From the NCBI GenBank assembly GCA_947479085.1, contig CANJYB010000015.1:1-64000 (forward strand): a stretch of 64,000 nt of DNA. The letters are read 5' to 3'. Positions within the stretch are counted from its first letter, which is position 1. Each line of letters begins with the position of its first letter. Both the position numbers and the translations under genes were made by a program. Under the pieces are notes generated by a model. The model did no database searches. It was given only the letters and a program-made list of their open reading frames with translations, and had not been told where the DNA came from. This document shows positions 6,223-55,705 of this stretch, in pieces. The DNA comes from Bacteroidota bacterium. GTDB taxonomy: Bacteria; Bacteroidota; Bacteroidia; 2-12-FULL-35-15.

Positions 6223-6252
6223 TTTACTTTCGTTTATTGTCACAATAAATAG

Positions 6253-6483
6253 TTCATCCATTCCCGACAATAATTCACCCATTCCCGACAATAATTCATC
6301 CATTCCCGACAATAATTCATCCATTCCCGACAATAATTCATCCATTCCCGACAATAATTCATCCATTCCCGACAACAATTCATCCATTCCCGACAATAAT
6401 TCACCCATTCCCGACAATAATTCACCCATTCCCGACAATAATTCATCCATTCCCGACAATAATTCACCCATTCCCGACAAAAT
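6253..6483. repeat. Tandem array 1: 11 copies of a 21-bp unit
   Basis: Eleven head-to-tail copies of TTCAYCCATT/CCCGACAATAA fill nearly half of the 526-bp gap between the sensor kinase and the 1416-aa surface protein. Copies start every 21 bp without exception (6253, 6274 ... 6463). Variation is limited almost entirely to one C/T position (CAT or CAC) plus a single C in the seventh copy; the last copy decays at its 3' end. Because 21 is a multiple of three, spurious frames stay open on both strands; no start signal or domain supports translation. The remainder of the gap (6484-6748) is AT-rich and holds only a promoter match. Confidence 0.97.
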
Positions 6484-11084: not shown

Positions 11085-12407
11085 CTATTCTGTTCTTTCA
11101 GAAGTTTCAATCCTGTTGTCCTGGTAATATACTTTCACTTTGTTTACCAGCCCCTGTTTGTTTTCAACGAATTCAATTTTAAAATAGGTATTGTCTTTTC
11201 CTTTCATTTTACCAGGAGCCATGGCTTCGAGTTCAAACTTTGGTTTGCCGGTTCGTTGATAAAATAACTTTCCGTTTTCGAAAGTAAATGTTCTGTCACT
11301 ATAAATTCCGGCATATTTCTTTAACGTTGCAGCATCAAAAGAGATAGGGTTGTTTGCAGCTTTTAATAATTCAAACTGCCAGTTGAGTTCAAATAATTCA
11401 TCCTCCTCTTTTGTTTTTGAAATAAGATTCTGAAAAATATTCATTTCAGCTGTTTCTAATGCTTTAGCTGCCGGCACCTGGACATCAGGTTTTACGCCTA
11501 CTTTTTCCCAATTGGTTTTGGTAATGGCATTCACAGCCTTGCCATAAGGAATGTAAATAACAAAACCATTTCCAACAGGTCGTTCAAATGTGTTGTGTGC
11601 CCCGCCACCGGTAGTTTCGCCAATAATATCAGCTCGCTTCAGGTTTTTTAAATCATAGGCAAATTCCTCGGCAGCAGAAAATGTTTTGCTGCTGGTTAGA
11701 ATATATAAAGGCATTTTTGTTAATGATTTTAAAGAAGAGTCGGGTGTGGTCCAGAATTCCGTAGTTGAATTATCCGGCCTGCTATAGGTATCGTTCACAT
11801 GTATCTTTTTATCAAAAAAATAACTGCATAACATGGTAACGGTTTCGGGAGAGCCTCCGCCATTGTTTCTTAAATCGATGATTAGCGCATTGGCATGAGA
11901 CACAAATTGCATAGCCGCTTTCATGGTTTCCTTTCCATATATTTTATCTGCCCAGAAATGTTCCAGGTTAATATAACCGATATTCCCGTTGAGTATTTCT
12001 ACTTTTCTGAATCCGAAATTGGCATTTATATTCCGTTGAGGTGGAGTATCATTTGCCGGACTAACGCTTGCGGCAGTTTCCAGGAGTTGGGCTTCCAATG
12101 CTGGATTATATTGTACCGATAAATGACCGTCATGATAAATGGAATACATATCATTTGTAAGCATATCCGAAAAGGCGACAGGGTCAGTTACATAATTATA
12201 GGCGCCACCTTTTTCACGCTTTTCAATATAATTGCTCATTTTTATTGCAGTTTCGGGTTCCACATAGTTATCCTTCATTAATTGACTTATGCTCATAAAA
12301 ATTGCTAACCTTGATTTTGAATCGAGTTGGACAGGAGTTGAATTGTTTTGTGAAAAGGAAAGAATGGACAGAAATAGGAACCCTGCGGAAATAAAATGTT
12401 TTATCAT
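11085..12407 (-). CDS. Secreted S41-family (C-terminal processing type) peptidase
   Basis: A 440-residue serine peptidase with a signal peptide (1-19, ending SFSQ), an N-terminal helical S41_N-like region (about 25-95) and the S41 catalytic core: GYINLEHFW, the ALIIDLRNNGGGS strand typical of the family, and TSSKTFSAAEEFAYDLK with the presumed nucleophile Ser244. Then GETTGGGAH and KVGVKPDVQVP complete the fold. There is no clear PDZ domain, so it resembles the IRBP/tricorn-like branch rather than Prc/CtpA. It probably cleaves peptides in the periplasm or outside. It lies 22 bp downstream of the flavin oxidoreductase gene on the same strand and may be co-transcribed with it, though no functional link is evident. 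Confidence 0.9.
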   Translation of the reverse strand: MIKHFISAGFLFLSILSFSQNNSTPVQLDSKSRLAIFMSISQLMKDNYVEPETAIKMSNYIEKREKGGAYNYVTDPVAFSDMLTNDMYSIYHDGHLSVQYNPALEAQLLETAASVSPANDTPPQRNINANFGFRKVEILNGNIGYINLEHFWADKIYGKETMKAAMQFVSHANALIIDLRNNGGGSPETVTMLCSYFFDKKIHVNDTYSRPDNSTTEFWTTPDSSLKSLTKMPLYILTSSKTFSAAEEFAYDLKNLKRADIIGETTGGGAHNTFERPVGNGFVIYIPYGKAVNAITKTNWEKVGVKPDVQVPAAKALETAEMNIFQNLISKTKEEDELFELNWQFELLKAANNPISFDAATLKKYAGIYSDRTFTFENGKLFYQRTGKPKFELEAMAPGKMKGKDNTYFKIEFVENKQGLVNKVKVYYQDNRIETSERTE

Positions 12408-19760: not shown

Positions 19761-20222
19761 TCTTACCCCGTTCCCCAAGATAACATTGGTATAAATAACC
19801 CTCGGAATGGTATTGTCTAAAAAGACAAAGGTACACCTGACGTTCGGAATGGTATTGTCTAAAAAGACAAAGGTACACTTGACGTTCGGAATGGCATTGT
19901 CTAAAAAGACAAAGGTACACTTGACGTTCGGAATGGCATTGTCTAAAAAGACAAAGGTACACCTGACATTCGGAATGGAATTGTCTAAAAAGACAAAGGT
20001 ACACTTGACGTTCGGAATGGCATTGTCTAAAAAGACAAAGGTACACCTGACGTTCGGAACGGCATTGTCTAAAAAGACAAAGGTACACCTGACGTTCGGA
20101 ATGACATTGTCTAAAAAGACAATGGTACTCCTTGCCTTTGGAATGGCATTTCCGAATATAACAATAGTAGAAATAACCTTTGAGAGGAAATTGAATAAAA
20201 TATTAATGGCATTAATTTCTTC
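19761..20222. repeat. Tandem array 2: eight copies of a 42-bp unit with decayed edges
   Basis: Eight near-identical units (CGGAATGGYATTG/TCTAAAAAGACAAAGG/TACACYTGACGTT) start at 19803 and recur exactly every 42 bp to 20097. A decayed ninth begins at 20139 and a further relic follows it. A decayed copy also precedes the array (19761-19802). Each unit carries a small hairpin TTGTCT-AAAA-AGACAA. The array occupies most of the 843-bp divergent gap between the DPP7 gene and the beta-propeller gene. Open frames through it on both strands follow from 42 being a multiple of three; they lack any start context or family match. Bases 20223-20370 hold nothing recognisable. Confidence 0.96.
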
Positions 20223-31157: not shown

Positions 31158-31203
31158 TTTCTAAATTATTTAATATTTAATTGTTAATTTTTTCCACATT
31201 ACA

Positions 31204-31442
31204 CCTCCGAACCTTCGGAGGTATATAAATAATACTCTTTACATACCTCCGAATGCTCGGAGGTACCTAACTAAGACTCTTTACACACCTCCGAATGTCC
31301 GGAGGTATGCCAGTAAGACTCTTTATACACCTCCGAAAGTTCTGAGGTATATCTTGAAGACTCTTTACACACCTCCGAAAGTTCGGTGGTATACAAGTAA
31401 GACTCTTTACACACCTCCGAAGGTTAGATGCTATATAAATAG
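31204..31442. repeat. Tandem array 3: six copies of a 42-bp unit
   Basis: Units start at 31204, 31246, 31288, 31330, 31372 and 31414, exactly 42 bp apart; the last is cut short. Each opens with CCTCCGAA facing a partner close to TTCGGAGG (perfect in the first copy), followed by a more variable middle and a constant end near AAGACTCTTTACACA. The palindrome decays progressively in copies four to six. The array fills most of the 369-bp gap between the hbd start and the end of the glycan operon on the same strand. The rest of the gap is AT-rich without recognisable signals. Confidence 0.95.
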
Positions 31443-36003: not shown

Positions 36004-37131
36004 ATGAAAATCGGAATAGTATGTTATCCCACTTTTGGTGGAAGTGGAGTAGTGGCCACCGAATTAGGAACAGCATTGGCGGCTAAAGGACATCAGGTGC
36101 ACTTTATTTCATATAGTCAACCGGTGCGATTAGACTTTTTTTCAGGCAATTTATTTTATCATGAAGTTTCTGTTTCCGATTATCCTTTGTTTGATTATCA
36201 ACCTTACGAACTCGTACTTTCAAGTAAGTTGGTAGATGTAGTAAAATACGAAAAGCTCGATTTGCTGCATGTTCATTATGCTATACCTCATGCTTCTGCG
36301 GCTTATATGGCCAAACAGATATTAGCTTCACAGGGAATTAATATTCCATTTATTACCACACTTCATGGTACAGATATAACACTTGTGGGAAAAGACCCCT
36401 CATTTGAACCCGTTATTACATTTGCCATTAACCAAAGTGATGCTGTAACTGCTGTTTCGCAAAGTCTCAAGGACGATACATATATTAATTTTCCTAATGT
36501 AAAAAAGGAAATTCACGTAATTCCTAATTTTATTTGCCTGGATGATTACAAAATAGAAAACAGGCATTGTGAAAAGAAAATGTACGCACCCAATGGTGAA
36601 AGAATACTTATTCATGTAAGTAATTTCAGAAAAGTGAAACGGGTGGAAGATGTATTGCATGTATTTGATAAAGTTAGAAAGGAAATTCCGGCAAAACTCA
36701 TTTTGGTTGGTGATGGTCCTGAACGGGCAAATATCGAAAAGCTTTGCAGAGAGTTAGATACTTGTAAGGACATAAAATCTTTAGGAAAAATCGTAAATCC
36801 GGAACAAATACTTTCCATTGCAGATTTATTTCTGCTCACTTCCGAAACAGAAAGTTTTGGTTTGGCAGCACTTGAAGCAATGGCAAGTAAGGTGCCTGTT
36901 ATTTCTTCTAATTCCGGGGGGATTCCGGAAGTCAATATCAATGGCTATTCAGGTTATATGAGTAATGTGGGCGATGTGGATGACATGGCTAAAAACGCTT
37001 TGCATATTTTAAAAGACGATGCAACCCTTGCTACTTTTAAAATGAATGCTTATGAACAGGCCCAAAAGTTTGACATTACCAAAATCCTCCCGATGTATGA
37101 AAATCTATATAATACGGTTTTAGGGAAATAA
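36004..37131 (+). CDS. bshA: N-acetyl-alpha-D-glucosaminyl L-malate synthase BshA
   Basis: 375 residues, GT4 family, GT-B fold; joins GlcNAc from UDP-GlcNAc to L-malate, the first step of bacillithiol synthesis. The BshA-specific N-terminus is clear: GIVCYPTFGGSGVVATELG, FISYSQPVRLD, HVHYAIPHASAAYMAKQIL and TTLHGTDITLVGKDPSF. The C-terminal domain has HVSNFRKVKRVEDV, LILVGDGPERANIE and ETESFGLAALEAMASKVPV. This implies bacillithiol as a low-molecular-weight thiol, as known in several Bacteroidota. BshB and BshC are not in the window. Confidence 0.95.
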   Translation: MKIGIVCYPTFGGSGVVATELGTALAAKGHQVHFISYSQPVRLDFFSGNLFYHEVSVSDYPLFDYQPYELVLSSKLVDVVKYEKLDLLHVHYAIPHASAAYMAKQILASQGINIPFITTLHGTDITLVGKDPSFEPVITFAINQSDAVTAVSQSLKDDTYINFPNVKKEIHVIPNFICLDDYKIENRHCEKKMYAPNGERILIHVSNFRKVKRVEDVLHVFDKVRKEIPAKLILVGDGPERANIEKLCRELDTCKDIKSLGKIVNPEQILSIADLFLLTSETESFGLAALEAMASKVPVISSNSGGIPEVNINGYSGYMSNVGDVDDMAKNALHILKDDATLATFKMNAYEQAQKFDITKILPMYENLYNTVLGK

Positions 37132-37148: not shown

Positions 37149-37196
37149 ATTAATCAAAATGGGCTGTAAATCGATTTACAGCCCATTTTGATTAAT
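37149..37196. terminator. 48-bp perfect palindrome, bidirectional terminator of bshA/yciH
   Basis: A perfect inverted repeat of 24 bp per arm with no spacer, centred on ATCGAT and containing GGGCTGTAAAT/ATTTACAGCCC, 17 bp after the bshA stop and about 60 bp beyond the convergent yciH stop. Confidence 0.85.
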
Positions 37197-37258: not shown

Positions 37259-37597
37259 CTACCCACCCGCTTTTTTTGCTTTATAATTTGCATCAGCCAA
37301 AAGTTTCAACACTTTGTCTCTATGGTCGCCCTGAAGTAAAATTTCTTCATTTTTTACACTTCCTCCCACCCCACATTTTTGTTTCAAGGTTTTTCCAAGC
37401 GATTCCAAATCATCTTCGTTACCAATAAAACCATGTATTCGGGTTACCATTTTTCCTCCACCCAATCTATCCAGGTATATTTTCAGGTTTTGTTGCTGAG
37501 GTGGCAATGAGTCAGCAGGACTTTGTTTTTCTGGTTCAAAATGAAAATCTTTATTGGTGGAATACACCATGCCGCCTGGTTTGTTTTTTTTTGACAT
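37259..37597 (-). CDS. yciH: SUI1/eIF1-like translation factor YciH
   Basis: 112 residues. A Lys-rich tail precedes the SUI1 fold: LKIYLDRLGGGKMVTRIHGF, GNEDDLESLGKTLKQKCGVG and GSVKNEEILLQGDHRDKVLK. Bacterial YciH resembles archaeal/eukaryotic eIF1 and affects start-codon fidelity in vitro. It is the last gene of a minus-strand group with the diacylglycerol-kinase-like and LTA-synthase-like genes (gaps 50 and 45 bp); no functional tie is known. Confidence 0.94.
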   Translation of the reverse strand: MSKKNKPGGMVYSTNKDFHFEPEKQSPADSLPPQQQNLKIYLDRLGGGKMVTRIHGFIGNEDDLESLGKTLKQKCGVGGSVKNEEILLQGDHRDKVLKLLADANYKAKKAGG

Positions 37598-37647: not shown

Positions 37648-38520
37648 TTAACCTACAATTACTCTCAAAGAAGCCGGATTCACTTTTACCAAAATAGTGT
37701 TCCCTATTTCAATTGGTTCTCCGTCAACATGACCTTTTAAATCGGGTTGTTTTACAGTAATTTCTTTCACGCTCATCATTTCAAGATACTTTGTTTTATT
37801 TAAGGTTTTATTAAATAAACGGTAGCCGATTGAGGGCACATTCCACCAACGGAATTCCTTTAGAATGGAAATTTTAAACTCACCATCAGTAGCATGAGCC
37901 GTGGGAGCAATAAATGCATTATTCCCCCATTGAGAACCGTTTGCAAAGCTGATTAAAAAAGCTTTTTTCTTTAATGATTTTCCATCCATTATCAATTCAT
38001 ATTCTTGCGCTTCATATTTTTTAAACTCCCTGAAAACTATTTTAATATAGGACCAAAACCCTCTTTTACCATATTTTGCAAATTCCCATCCTATGTGAGC
38101 ATCAAAACCAATTCCAGCAACATTTACAAAAGTTTCTTCATTAAAATGAACGGTATCAATAGAGATTTCTTTTCCTGTGTTAATCATTAGTATGGCTTTT
38201 ACCATATCAAGCGGAACATTTAAGTGCCTTGCTAATCCGTTGCCTGATCCACTTGGCAAAATGGCCAAGGCCGTTTTCGTTCCTATCAACCCTTTTGCAA
38301 CTTCATTAACAGAACCATCCCCACCTACCGCAACCGCAATATTAAATTTTTCATCTGCAGCTTGTCTTGCCAAAACAGTAGCATGTTTTGGAGCATCCGT
38401 ATAAACTATTTTATATTCAAATATGGAAAGATTAAGGTGAAGGTCAACAAGTTTCTCCACGACTTTTTGTTTCCCAACTCCTGAAATAGGATTAACTATA
38501 AAACATATTTTCTTTTTCAC
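37648..38520 (-). CDS. Diacylglycerol-kinase-family lipid kinase (YegS/DgkB-like)
   Basis: 290 residues with a GTG start. The DAGK catalytic domain is complete: CFIVNPISGVGKQKVVEKLV, AVAVGGDGSVNEVAKGL (the GGDG nucleotide loop) and AILPSGSGNGLARHLNVP. Then comes the C-terminal beta-sandwich with NVAGIGFDAHIGWEFAKYG and DLKGHVDGEPIEIG. Members phosphorylate diacylglycerol or related lipids. It lies 45 bp downstream of an LTA-synthase-like gene, whose reaction would release diacylglycerol, so a recycling role is attractive (inference). Confidence 0.92.
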   Translation of the reverse strand: MKKKICFIVNPISGVGKQKVVEKLVDLHLNLSIFEYKIVYTDAPKHATVLARQAADEKFNIAVAVGGDGSVNEVAKGLIGTKTALAILPSGSGNGLARHLNVPLDMVKAILMINTGKEISIDTVHFNEETFVNVAGIGFDAHIGWEFAKYGKRGFWSYIKIVFREFKKYEAQEYELIMDGKSLKKKAFLISFANGSQWGNNAFIAPTAHATDGEFKISILKEFRWWNVPSIGYRLFNKTLNKTKYLEMMSVKEITVKQPDLKGHVDGEPIEIGNTILVKVNPASLRVIVG

Positions 38521-38565
38521 TGGTCTGTTATTTATTTGAGATTTTTATTTTTATAAAATCTTTTT

Positions 38566-40464
38566 CTATTTCATTTTGTTATTAATCAAACACTGCTGAT
38601 AGGTCTGAATTATTGCTTTGGCCTTTGTTTCCAATTGTTTTGTGATGGCAGATTTTTTAACACTTAAGTCTGTTTTAAACAAACTATCCTGCATATAATC
38701 ATACATATCAATGGTTTTATCTCCGTCAAACAAGAGTGAATAATCATTTTGAATAAACTGATATACATCACTATTCATGTTTAATGCAAAATGGTCAGCA
38801 GTAGAATCAAATACTGATGTTCCAAATGCAAAATAGGGTTCAGGATAATTAAGGTAATCCAGTATTGTTGGCATTATATCAATATGTTGCGTTGTTGTAG
38901 AGTCATATTTTTTGAGATTTGAATTGGGCATAAAATATATAATGGGAATAGAATAGCTCCCGATTCGGTTCATATAATAAGGGTCTTCCGAAATGCCCGT
39001 ATGATCAGCAGAGAGAACGAACAATGTATTATTATACCAAGGCATTTTTTTAGCCGTTTCAAAAAATCTTTGTAAAGCAAAATCAGTATAACTTATACTT
39101 TTCTCTATTTCCAGAGGACCCGACTTAAACTTTTTTTTGTATTTATCCGGAACATTAAAAGGGTGATGGGAGGTTAAAGTAAACAAGGTTGCAAAAAGAG
39201 GTTGCTTTTTAGTGTTGATGATATTGGCAGTGTATTGCAAAAACTCCTCATCCCAGATTCCCCAGTTACCATCATAGTCTTTTTCATTATTATATTCAGT
39301 TCTTCCATAATAATTATCATATCCTGCAAAATCTGTAAACACATCAAATCCCATAGTTCCATTATCCCCGCCATGAAAAAATGCAGAATAGTAACCTTGT
39401 TTTTTCAACAAACTTGCCAGACTGTTAATCTGGTTGCTTCCGTATTGCGAAAAAATATAAGGCTCATCTGACCAGGTCGGGATGCTTGCCACTATCGCGG
39501 GAATACCTTCAATTGATTTTTTTCCGTCAGAAAAGGCATTGGTACAAGTAAAACTTTCTCTCATTAAAGAATCCAGGAAAGGAGTGTATCCTGTTTTTCT
39601 TCTATTTAACCCTCCAATATACTCTTTTGAAAAACTTTCCAATGCAATGACAAATACATTTAACTTTTTAAAAGGACCGGTTTTTCCTTTATGGTAAGGG
39701 GAATAAAGTTTTGCAATTTCCTTTTCGTCAGTAAAGTATATTTTGGGTTCTATTCCCACTACATCCAGAGTTTTTAAAATAGTAAATGGTGTGCTTACCA
39801 CCAGGGGTATATATTTTACAGAAGTATATTCCACGGCATTCACAGTCGTTATTGGTTTCAATTGAAAGCCTCCTCGGTAGCCAATCAACAGTAAGCTAAT
39901 ACTTATGCAAAAAATCAAGACCTGATTTCTGTATTGTTTTCTATTCCATTCTAAATGTATGTTCTTTTCTGTTTTTTTATATAAATAGTAAACGGCAGCA
40001 GTTAAAACACCCCAAAGAATAAAAACATACCAATAATCCTTAAGAAACAAGGGGAGCAAACGTTTCAGGTCGCCACCTTTTTCTCCGCCAAAAAAATTAA
40101 AAACATCAGATGTTGTTCGTTTTAAAGTAAATCTGAAATATGCAAAATCAACGCAATTAGCCAACATTGCAAGACTATTAATAGCAATGAAGAACCATTT
40201 TGAAAATGTCTTATATATATTATTTTCTCTGAAGCCCAAAGGAAGCAAATAAAGAAAGAGGTAAATGCTATTGGAAAGAATAATAACTGATAAGTCAAAC
40301 CGAAGCCCTAAAAACAAAAGGAAAATAAAATGCCCAAAGCCAATGTCGGTAAAAATGGAATAATTAAAAAAAAAGAAAAGTAAACGACAAACAGAATATA
40401 GAACTAAGAGATATGCTAATCGCCTGGATAGAATAGTAACATTTGAAAATGTAGACGAGTTCAC
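38566..40464 (-). CDS. LTA-synthase-like membrane phosphatase/sulfatase-fold protein
   Basis: 632 residues: five N-terminal membrane helices (about 10-205) and an extracytoplasmic alkaline-phosphatase-superfamily domain (about 265-590). Motifs follow the LtaS/OpgB group: VFVIALESFSKEYIGG (metal-binding Glu), TPFLDSLMRESF, SDGKKSIEGIPAIVASIP (probable Ser nucleophile in GKKS), FFHGGDNGTMGFDVF, FTLTSHHPFNVPDKY and LSADHTGISED. These enzymes transfer phosphoglycerol or phosphoethanolamine from phospholipid to a glycan or lipid. Start is GTG. It leads an operon with a lipid kinase. The acceptor is unknown in a Gram-negative envelope. Confidence 0.9.
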   Translation of the reverse strand: MNSSTFSNVTILSRRLAYLLVLYSVCRLLFFFFNYSIFTDIGFGHFIFLLFLGLRFDLSVIILSNSIYLFLYLLPLGFRENNIYKTFSKWFFIAINSLAMLANCVDFAYFRFTLKRTTSDVFNFFGGEKGGDLKRLLPLFLKDYWYVFILWGVLTAAVYYLYKKTEKNIHLEWNRKQYRNQVLIFCISISLLLIGYRGGFQLKPITTVNAVEYTSVKYIPLVVSTPFTILKTLDVVGIEPKIYFTDEKEIAKLYSPYHKGKTGPFKKLNVFVIALESFSKEYIGGLNRRKTGYTPFLDSLMRESFTCTNAFSDGKKSIEGIPAIVASIPTWSDEPYIFSQYGSNQINSLASLLKKQGYYSAFFHGGDNGTMGFDVFTDFAGYDNYYGRTEYNNEKDYDGNWGIWDEEFLQYTANIINTKKQPLFATLFTLTSHHPFNVPDKYKKKFKSGPLEIEKSISYTDFALQRFFETAKKMPWYNNTLFVLSADHTGISEDPYYMNRIGSYSIPIIYFMPNSNLKKYDSTTTQHIDIMPTILDYLNYPEPYFAFGTSVFDSTADHFALNMNSDVYQFIQNDYSLLFDGDKTIDMYDYMQDSLFKTDLSVKKSAITKQLETKAKAIIQTYQQCLINNKMK

Positions 40465-40485: not shown

Positions 40486-40493
40486 CAAAGATA
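40486..40493 (-). promoter_or_regulatory. Bacteroidota -7 element (TATCTTTG) for the LTA-synthase-like operon
   Basis: Exact TANNTTTG match on the minus strand, 21 bp before the GTG at 40464. Confidence 0.6.
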
Positions 40494-40678: not shown

Positions 40679-41080
40679 ATGAAAAAATTATTATCATTAT
40701 TGTCCATTGCAGGGATGTTTACGTTTACAGCATGTGGACCTAGCGCTGAAGAAAAAGCAGCCAAAGAAAAAGCTACTAAGGACTCTATTGCTGCTGATGA
40801 AGCTATGAAAGCAGAAGCAAAGGCAAAAGCGGAAACAGACTCAATTGCAAAATATGCAGACGAAATGAAAGCAAAAATGGAGGCTGATTCTATAGAGGCT
40901 TACAAAGCTAAAAAGGCGGAAAAGAAAACTGCTAAAAAACCTGCCGCAAAAGTAGAAACTCCGAAACCAGAAGCCCCTAAGACCCCACATGTAAATATAA
41001 AGGCAAAAACTACTAAGCGCGCGATAAATGGTGCAGCACCTGCGGCGGCTCCAAAGGAAGGAAGCACCAAAGGAAAGTAA
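40679..41080 (+). CDS. Small Lys/Ala-rich lipoprotein, copy 1
   Basis: 133 residues with a lipoprotein signal (AGMFTFTACGPSAEEK, lipid-modified Cys about 19). The mature part is a charged helical or coiled segment of Ala, Lys, Glu and Asp-Ser-Ile-Ala repeats (about 20-75), then a basic, Pro-rich tail (KKPAAKVETPKPEAPKTP) rich enough in Lys to bind peptidoglycan or DNA nonspecifically. Its first 35 residues are nearly the same as those of the next gene, so the two are tandem duplicates. Own promoter and terminator; probably abundant. No named family recognised. Confidence 0.85.
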   Translation: MKKLLSLLSIAGMFTFTACGPSAEEKAAKEKATKDSIAADEAMKAEAKAKAETDSIAKYADEMKAKMEADSIEAYKAKKAEKKTAKKPAAKVETPKPEAPKTPHVNIKAKTTKRAINGAAPAAAPKEGSTKGK

Positions 41081-41103
41081 TTAGCATATTTAATTCTATT
41101 TTT

Positions 41104-41137
41104 AAAAGATTCCTAATTTCATTAGGAATCTTTTTTT
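41104..41137 (+). terminator. Terminator of small lipoprotein copy 1
   Basis: AAAAGATTCCTAA and TTAGGAATCTTTTTTT form a strong hairpin with a T-run, 23 bp after the stop. Confidence 0.9.
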
Positions 41138-41238
41138 GTTTTCAAAAGAATGGTTATAAATCTAAGAACATTTATTAATAAAAAATGTTAAAATGAAGGG
41201 ATTTGGTAATATTTTTCTCCTATGTTAAAAAAATATTT

Positions 41239-41246
41239 TACATTTG
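41239..41246 (+). promoter_or_regulatory. Bacteroidota -7 element (TACATTTG) for the second small lipoprotein
   Basis: Exact TANNTTTG match 33 bp before the ATG at 41280, nearly the same spacing as for copy 1. Confidence 0.6.
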
Positions 41247-41279
41247 CCGAAATTTTAATTAAAATCACAAACCAAAACA

Positions 41280-41549
41280 ATGAAAAAATTATTTACATTA
41301 GTTGCCGTAGCAGGAATGTTTACATTCGTAGCTTGCGGTCCTAGCGCAGAAGAAAAAGCTGCAAAGGAAAAAGCACAACAAGATTCAATTGCTGCTGTTG
41401 AAGCTGCTAAAGCTGCTGAAGAAGCTGCAAAAGCTCAAGCAACTGCTGATTCTACTGCAAAGTATGCTGAGGCAGAAGCTGCAAAAGCAAAAGCAATGCA
41501 AGATTCAATTGATGCTGCTGCTGCAAAAAAAGGTGGTAAAAAGAAATAA
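41280..41549 (+). CDS. Small Ala/Lys-rich lipoprotein, copy 2
   Basis: 89 residues: lipoprotein signal with AGMFTFVACGPSAEEK (Cys about 19) and a single charged helix of Ala-Glu-Ala-Ala-Lys repeats with the phrase QDSIAAVEA and QDSIDAAAA, ending GGKKK. It is a shorter paralogue of the preceding gene, without its Pro/Lys tail. The predicted long helix recalls Lpp-like spacers between outer membrane and peptidoglycan; this is an analogy, not homology. Own promoter and terminator. Confidence 0.85.
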   Translation: MKKLFTLVAVAGMFTFVACGPSAEEKAAKEKAQQDSIAAVEAAKAAEEAAKAQATADSTAKYAEAEAAKAKAMQDSIDAAAAKKGGKKK

Positions 41550-45318: not shown

Positions 45319-45508
45319 AATACCTCTCTTCAGGTTGTAAATACCCCTTTCCAGATTTTGAATACCCCTTTGCAAGATTACAAATACCCCTTTCCAGATT
45401 GTAAATACCCTTCTCCAGATTATAAATACCCCTCTCCAGATTGTAAATACCCCTCTCCAGATTGCAAATACCCCTCTCCAGATTGTAAATACCCCTTGAA
45501 AGATTATG
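45319..45508. repeat. Tandem array 4: nine copies of a 21-bp unit
   Basis: Units of AATACCCCTC/TCCAGATTGTA start at 45319, 45340, 45361, 45383, 45404, 45425, 45446, 45467 and 45488. All spacings are 21 bp except one of 22, which shifts any reading frame. The last five copies are the most uniform. The array fills most of the 434-bp gap between the convergent GLPGLI gene and the membrane protein; the remainder shows nothing recognisable. Confidence 0.94.
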
Positions 45509-55176: not shown

Positions 55177-55411
55177 TTCCGTCAACATAAGTCTTTATTC
55201 TGATAGGAATATTACGGTATTTCTTTTCTTGAATTTCTATTTCTGAAATTAGATGTTTTTATAGCAAACTATAAAGAGCCTAATAAAGCCGCTTTCTTTT
55301 TTTTGAACAATTACCTCTTAATTTACTTTTTTTATCTCACCCAAAATTAGACATGATGAGAAAACTGAAATATCCTTTTTCCCTCTCTTTTATCACTTTC
55401 CGTCTCCTTCT

Positions 55412-55705
55412 CATGAATCCCCGACTGATTCTCTACACTCCTAGTCTCCCTTTCATGAATCCCCGACTGATTCTCTACACTCCTCGTCTCTCTTTCATGA
55501 ATCCCCGACTGATTCTCTAAACTCCTCGTCTCTCTTTCATGAATCCCCGACTGATTCTCTAAACTCCTCGTCTCTCTTTCATGAATCCCCGACTGATTCT
55601 CTACATTCCTCGTCTCTCTTTCATGAATCCCCGACTGATTCTGCAGACTCCTCGTCCGATTCTTATGTTTTTCATGTTTCTTTCTTAATTTGTTTCTCCT
55701 TCTTA
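55412..55705. repeat. Tandem array 5: six copies of a 42-bp unit, decayed edges
   Basis: Units CATGAATCCCCGACTG/ATTCTCTAMACTCC/TCGTCTCTCTTT start at 55412, 55454, 55496, 55538, 55580 and 55622, exactly 42 bp apart, with a decayed copy to 55705 and another relic before 55412. The plus strand is about three-quarters pyrimidine. One frame opens with ATG in every copy but is stopped by TAA in two of them, so translation is unlikely. The array sits in the 938-bp gap between the proline-rich gene and pseC, together with array 6. Confidence 0.95.

Follow-up and report, generated by a model that had tools for sequence, protein, structure and literature searches.

A 64,000-nucleotide stretch of contig CANJYB010000015.1 (assembly GCA_947479085.1, from an uncultured Bacteroidota bacterium), the whole of which is called the window below, carries a gene for a predicted membrane head-group transferase followed by a gene for a YegS/DgkB-type lipid kinase (Table 1). 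The best explanation of this pair, which we put forward tentatively, is that the transferase uses phosphatidylethanolamine (PE) and moves phosphoethanolamine to an acceptor in the cell envelope, whereupon the neighboring kinase recycles the diacylglycerol (DAG) left behind. A preliminary description of the window had reported an LtaS-like gene and a YegS/DgkB-like kinase gene 45 bp apart, and both open reading frames (ORFs) are where it placed them. That observation is confirmed and its interpretation is partly supported: a head-group transferase fold beside a lipid kinase and the logic of DAG recycling are upheld by the analyses given here, and the proposed source of the head group is not.

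Fold and active site of the transferase

The transferase matched PF00884 of Pfam (E 8e-38). Its best NCBIfam match was the LtaS model NF053595, at 96.3 bits well under the cut-off of 970, and the match to the curated MdoB/OpgB model was weak (46.6 bits, cut-off 572). Searches of Pfam and NCBIfam at E values up to 0.001 gave no match to an EptA-type N-terminal domain or to the curated EptA model. The nearest solved structure by sequence is VP1736 (3lxq, E 9e-32). The genome encodes three PF00884 proteins, the transferase and two paralogues on contigs C1 and C9, and the family is widespread, with at least 594 pattern matches and at least 579 confirmed relatives. Bacteroidota genes of this type tend to bear lipoteichoic acid (LTA) synthase names.

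An AlphaFold2 (AF2) model built from 58 family sequences (mean pLDDT 91.7, pTM 0.89) has the LtaS fold and the five helices that the preliminary description had proposed, spanning residues 3-33, 43-64, 82-113, 145-164 and 175-196 of the N-terminal region. A hydropathy scan also gave five segments, which cover four of these helices, two segments falling on the second-helix region and helix 145-164 lying below threshold. When the model was compared with known folds (Foldseek was run as well) the top match was again VP1736 (Z 46.7), followed by chains of the LtaP/LtaS type (Z 39.5-40.2), YejM/PbgA (Z about 30-32) and sulfatase chains (Z about 28-32). EptA is not among the 50 fold matches listed, which carries no weight either way.

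Residue conservation was scored over 58 family rows with LtaS as the reference numbering. The manganese ligands of LtaS, E255, D475 and H476, are E276, D487 and H488 in the transferase, and each is present in 58/58 rows. The preliminary description had placed the catalytic site around the motif GKKS, and structure prediction is consistent with this: S317 of that motif opens helix 317-326, and its column contains Ser in 57 rows and Thr in one. In alignments with LtaS, T300 falls not on S317 itself but opposite an adjacent residue (K316 or I318) or a gap, so that the equivalence of S317 to T300 is a step that we infer. S317 is taken as the probable nucleophile because its column is restricted to Ser and Thr, because it starts a helix, and because Ser or Thr is conserved at this position in more distant members (row L045, read in a wrong frame, was excluded from these).

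Six LtaS residues, H347, D349, F353, W354, R356 and H416, are given as glycerol-phosphate contacts in PMC4973235. Two of these are kept in all 58 rows (H347 as H364 and H416 as H433) and four are replaced: D349 by G/A366, F353 by T/S370, W354 by M371 and R356 by F373, with M371 and F373 each found in 57/58 rows. Owing to these replacements the donor pocket, conserved within the family, is distinct from that of LtaS.

Lipid genes, the kinase and the donor

The genome of the window is 99.4% complete. Its one CDP-alcohol phosphatidyltransferase (PF01066) scored 96.7 bits with the pssA model and 29.2 bits with the pgsA model, it has one Psd, and the PF01066 search found no PgsA in it. The order to which it belongs consists of one genus with 36 genomes, and 27 of these, several of them incomplete, have exactly one PF01066 gene. 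A phylum-wide sample comprised 198 genomes, of which 17, not counting that of the window, carry a full-length ortholog of the transferase (E 2e-85 or better). Five carriers of other classes gave PF01066 matches of 125-139 bits, indicating that such genes are detectable by this search; the best hits of the 12 same-class carriers scored 57-83 bits. The preliminary description had the transferase draw phosphoglycerol from phosphatidylglycerol (PG), a donor that finds no support here, since no PgsA was found in this genome and four of the six LtaS contacts are replaced. Given those replacements, the presence of a PssA-like enzyme and Psd, and the failure to find PgsA, PG is unlikely to be the donor in this organism and PE is the likely one, insofar as gene content and pocket residues can tell.

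The kinase has the PF00781 (DAGK_cat) domain and the PF19279 YegS C-terminal domain, and it passes the TIGR00147 model of YegS/Rv2252/BmrU lipid kinases (120.3 bits, cut-off 118.65). Its PDB matches include DgkB (2qv7, E 1.3e-17) and 4wer (E 1.1e-21), with sphingosine kinase 1 as a distant match (E 5e-4). It keeps the GGDG motif and a C-terminal DGE, and has a GSGNG motif, which is present in all 28 kinases compared. DAG is its presumed substrate. As a search of its genome with the kinase at E 1e-10 gave this one match, the paralogues on C1 and C9 have no neighboring kinase of the YegS/DgkB type.

In the scheme that we favor, the transferase would be an inner-membrane enzyme of the LtaS/EptA superfamily whose periplasmic domain, with a metal bound at E276, D487 and H488 and S317 as nucleophile, takes the phospho-head group off PE. 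The phosphoethanolamine would be passed on within the envelope, the acceptor being perhaps lipid A, a surface glycolipid or a glycan. The leftover DAG would reach the inner leaflet, where the cytosolic YegS/DgkB-type kinase would convert it to phosphatidic acid (PA), from which PssA and Psd would make PE again. Both the donor and the head group in this scheme are presumptive. Lipid A is a possible acceptor, LpxC being present in the genome.

Several findings weigh against this scheme. The PssA assignment is a best match, since 96.7 bits falls below the TIGR00473 (pssA) cut-off of 107. Nine of the 36 genomes of the order have two or three CDP-alcohol phosphatidyltransferases, giving 11 extra genes. 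Ten of these were classified (eight by their matched stretches), the eleventh (in G002), which has a stop in its match, being left out. Seven of the ten, from six genomes, are weakly PgsA- or cardiolipin-synthase-like (46-55 bits with the better-scoring of the two models, cut-offs 109 and 240) and three are inositol-lipid-like, with none above any cut-off; from their sequences a divergent PgsA is possible in the relatives that have extra genes. The GSGNG motif of the kinase (GSGNGLAR) stands where the three DgkB-type rows compared have GTxND, so that its substrate may be DAG or another lipid. A DgkA-family gene lies elsewhere in the genome (PDB DgkA, E 6e-5) and could handle DAG as well; therefore the neighboring kinase need not be the DAG kinase. 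Finally, in none of the 17 phylum-wide ortholog carriers does a kinase gene stand beside the transferase gene among the matches listed.

In two further genomes of the genus (loci L148 of G018 and L150 of G006) we observed a gene like BT1523-type phosphatidylinositol-phosphate synthases, scoring 243.7 bits on the matched piece against a cut-off of 350. Going by this gene, part of the genus may make inositol lipids.

Conservation and setting of the gene pair

Of the 36 genomes of the order, 35 gave a match to the transferase and 34 to the kinase; neither was found in G009, which is 80% complete, and G030 gave no more than a partial transferase match. In every one of the 34 genomes that have both, the two genes are neighbors in the same orientation, with gaps of -1 to 307 bp (median 76), a conservation of gene order that far exceeds chance. 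Outside the order the picture is patchier. Named loci were the best 80 of at least 579 relatives, and this sample is therefore uneven. In 24 of the 80 a kinase gene directly follows the transferase gene in the same orientation (three loci from the same genus as the window and 21 of the 77 from outside it), and the full trio with the SUI1 gene (Table 1) is found in 12; in locus L081 SUI1 directly follows the transferase and there is no kinase. Two of the 80 loci end less than 100 bases past the transferase gene, so that no neighbor could show, and ORFs in the named loci run from stop to stop, so that gap lengths come from the order genomes only. Of the 17 phylum-wide carriers, 15 have a kinase match (G217 and G207 do not); second kinase matches of G070 and G076 are not in that listing.

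When the pair state is mapped on a 75-row tree in which 24 rows are paired (the paired locus L125 is absent from the alignment), it requires nine changes; shuffled states needed 20.6 on average, and none of 500 shuffles gave a value as low. Well-supported branches force only one change. From these changes and the patchy adjacency, the pair is either old or has been repeatedly gained or lost, and it is not universal. Conservation in relatives, which the preliminary description had put up for checking, thus holds for the order, where the pair is fixed. Adjacency is also seen again in other groups, although not in the majority of the other carriers examined, so that a lack of conservation, which that description had named as refuting, applies only in part.

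A second pairing was found in G138 and G056. There a YegS-family kinase gene stands next to a gene for an LtaS-like protein of a different subfamily, which has Thr at the position of S317. In G056 the pair is immediately preceded by two genes named by eye from sequence as a response regulator and a histidine kinase; in G138 such genes are two genes more distant, and two PAP2 genes follow the pair. By analogy this cassette resembles eptA/mcr neighborhoods, for which two-component genes, pap2 and dgkA are described in PMC7559476 and PMC10285318. No acceptor pathway common to the transferase neighborhoods was found in the named loci.

The preliminary description had put the pair under one promoter. 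Upstream of the transferase gene there is a single match to TAnnTTTG, which we take to be the Bacteroidota -7 box motif, and from that box to position 36424 no other was found on either strand; no terminator-like, sigma-70-like or TAnnTTTG site was reported in the gap between the genes. Together with a candidate terminator hairpin (Table 1) the box is compatible with a three-gene unit, and the transferase and kinase genes are presumably co-transcribed. The proposal of one promoter is to this extent compatible with the window, but the window has 102 -7-like boxes where 97.7 are expected by chance. Sigma-70-like matches are likewise close to their chance number (21 against 17.4), and some of them fall within the transferase gene on its own strand.

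Table 1 Features of the window and of related loci
Feature	Position	Strand	Description
Transferase	38566-40464	-	Predicted membrane head-group transferase, LtaS fold, PF00884; 632 aa, GTG start, five transmembrane helices plus periplasmic domain
Codon of S317	39514-39516	-	Candidate nucleophile of the GKKS motif; starts helix 317-326 in the AF2 model
Gap between transferase and kinase	38521-38565	-	45 bp
Kinase	37648-38520	-	YegS/DgkB-type lipid kinase; 290 aa, GTG start
SUI1/YciH-like translation factor	37259-37597	-	112 aa, PF01253; third gene of the conserved run
Candidate Bacteroidota -7 box	40486-40493	-	TATCTTTG; upstream of the LtaS-like gene
Candidate terminator	37149-37196		Hairpin of 20 pairs where the BshA and SUI1 genes converge
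Second cassette	L155:2852-10247, L156:2107-6977		Response regulator, histidine kinase, LtaS-like protein, YegS-type kinase; L155 adds two PAP2 proteins

Several other features of these neighborhoods were recorded. Divergent from the transferase gene, positions 40679-41549 of the window encode two small Ala/Lys-rich lipoproteins (CGPSAEEKAAKEKA...), the second of which scored 25.4 bits with the PG1828 family model (cut-off 50), and locus L066 has a similar lipoprotein pair near its transferase gene. Lipoprotein clusters lie directly upstream of the transferase in nine of the 80 loci, and a tenth locus has one at a distance of two genes upstream. They include four lipoproteins in a row (L083:341-2863) and a further case at L066:5192-5881, and two lipoproteins scanned from such clusters have the Bact_surface_Ig-like domain PF16403. 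In Sphingobacteriaceae a GtrA/DPMS-type membrane protein follows the transferase (L086:7886-8383 and L098:7888-8373, with PF04138 in L086), a neighbor that hints at a glycolipid setting in that family, and other loci have an S41 protease upstream. The window also contains five tandem arrays of period 21 or 42 with 5-11 copies (6248-6480, 19802-20150, 31201-31425, 45319-45496 and 55401-55656); the array at 19802-20150 has largely open frames on both strands. Elsewhere in this genome, contig C1 has an ORF stretch rich in repeats (L157, about 11529-12168).

Other explanations and known systems

The gene order might simply be inherited, with the kinase and SUI1 genes as housekeeping passengers of an old operon and the transferase acting independently of them. 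SUI1, which has no known lipid role, does travel with the pair (in the 12 trios, and in L081 even where the kinase is missing), the kinase is present but listed nowhere beside the transferase in the 15 phylum-wide carriers that have it, and the tree is compatible with a single origin of the pair. However, paired rows cluster on that tree and are nonetheless scattered over it, a pattern which together with the separate pairing in the other subfamily suggests selection for the link, and DAG is an expected by-product of the enzyme class of the transferase; we consider simple inheritance of the order unlikely. A lower probability still is given to a phosphoglycerol transferase of MdoB- or LtaS-like type that would move phosphoglycerol from PG onto a surface glycan or lipid, the kinase recycling DAG. 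The nearest curated families are the LtaS and MdoB-type models, the LtaS fold and the H347 and H416 equivalents are kept, and the extra CDP-alcohol phosphatidyltransferases of nine order genomes are weakly PgsA- or cardiolipin-synthase-like in six of them. The arguments on the other side are the lack of a recognized PgsA in the window's genome, the single PF01066 enzyme in 27 of the 36 genomes, the replacement of the D349, F353, W354 and R356 equivalents, and the strong PF01066 matches in five carriers of other classes.

Bacteroidota are known makers of sphingolipids, and the pair could belong to a system in which ceramide phosphoethanolamine is made from PE and ceramide, the kinase then being of the sphingoid-base or ceramide type or a DAG recycler. 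The GSGNG motif looks more like that of sphingosine kinases than like GTxND, and the distant match to sphingosine kinase 1 points the same way. However, when the matched stretches of the eight best of 19 PF00155 hits were scanned, none reached a serine palmitoyltransferase cut-off (the best, at 326 bits against 640, is from a protein that also passes the glycine C-acetyltransferase model, and L198 had 288 against 640), and we think such a system improbable. A regulator without enzyme activity, of the PbgA/YejM type, or a hydrolase such as a sulfatase or a phospholipase C-like enzyme, seems about equally improbable. YejM/PbgA and sulfatases share the fold, and PF00884 is itself named Sulfatase. 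However, PbgA has no metal site according to PMC4973235, whereas the site is invariant here, and Z values are clearly higher for the LtaS-type chains and 3lxq. The stretch S317-I-E-G-I-P contains no C/SxPxR, which we take to be the formylglycine-type sulfatase motif. Transferase and hydrolase activities are not separated by the present data.

Among known systems the nearest logic, by analogy, is that of the EptA/MCR-DgkA cycle and not that of the LTA cycle. The preliminary description saw in the pair a mirror of the Firmicute LTA cycle, a comparison that is not needed given that Gram-negative bacteria already combine a transferase with a DAG kinase, by linkage of mcr-3 to dgkA and co-regulation of eptA and dgkA, as PMC7559476 and PMC10285318 report. 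As in those systems, a Gram-negative inner-membrane transferase of the alkaline phosphatase superfamily is tied to a DAG kinase (a putative one here) by gene order or regulation, PE is the likely donor, and PAP2 genes, which accompany some known cassettes, are present in one of the related cassettes here. In contrast to EptA and MCR, the transferase is closer in sequence to LtaS/MdoB and VP1736 and has Ser rather than Thr at the nucleophile position, and its partner is a YegS/DgkB-type kinase instead of membrane DgkA. With the Firmicute LtaS/DgkB system it shares the five transmembrane helices, the LtaS fold, the metal ligands and a kinase of the DgkB superfamily, but the match is far under the LtaS cut-off, four of the six glycerol-phosphate contacts are replaced and the genome has no recognized PgsA. 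VP1736 of Vibrio parahaemolyticus (PDB 3lxq), an alkaline phosphatase superfamily protein listed as uncharacterized, likewise has Ser at the S317 position (in GTRS), but its donor-pocket stretch differs (YGGEANFDNM against HGGDNGTMGF). MdoB/OpgB, phosphoglycerol transferase I, is similar in its periplasmic head-group transfer in a Gram-negative and in its weak curated match, but that match is far below the cut-off and its PG donor is unavailable as far as genes show. By these comparisons the transferase and kinase most likely follow EptA/MCR-DgkA in logic and LtaS in fold and are members of neither.

A literature search of titles and the starts of abstracts, with subscription journals mostly outside its range, found no paper on the transferase-kinase pair and nothing joining Bacteroidetes, LtaS and phosphoglycerol transferase; the term 'LTA synthase family protein' was not found among the matches listed. 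A bolder version of the scheme that we favor, on the unlikely side in our judgment, is that an LtaS-fold family with a remodeled pocket (H364, M371 and F373) has switched to PE in Bacteroidota that apparently cannot synthesize PG, and that a dedicated soluble kinase drives a PE-DAG-PA cycle by which phosphoethanolamine would be attached to, or polymerized on, an undescribed envelope polymer or lipid. The gene pair gives testable predictions: the kinase points to DAG as a product and the replaced contacts to a donor other than PG. If PE is the donor and the acceptor an unknown one, the pair would represent an undescribed branch of envelope chemistry in Bacteroidota, and the LTA label that such genes carry would be misleading.

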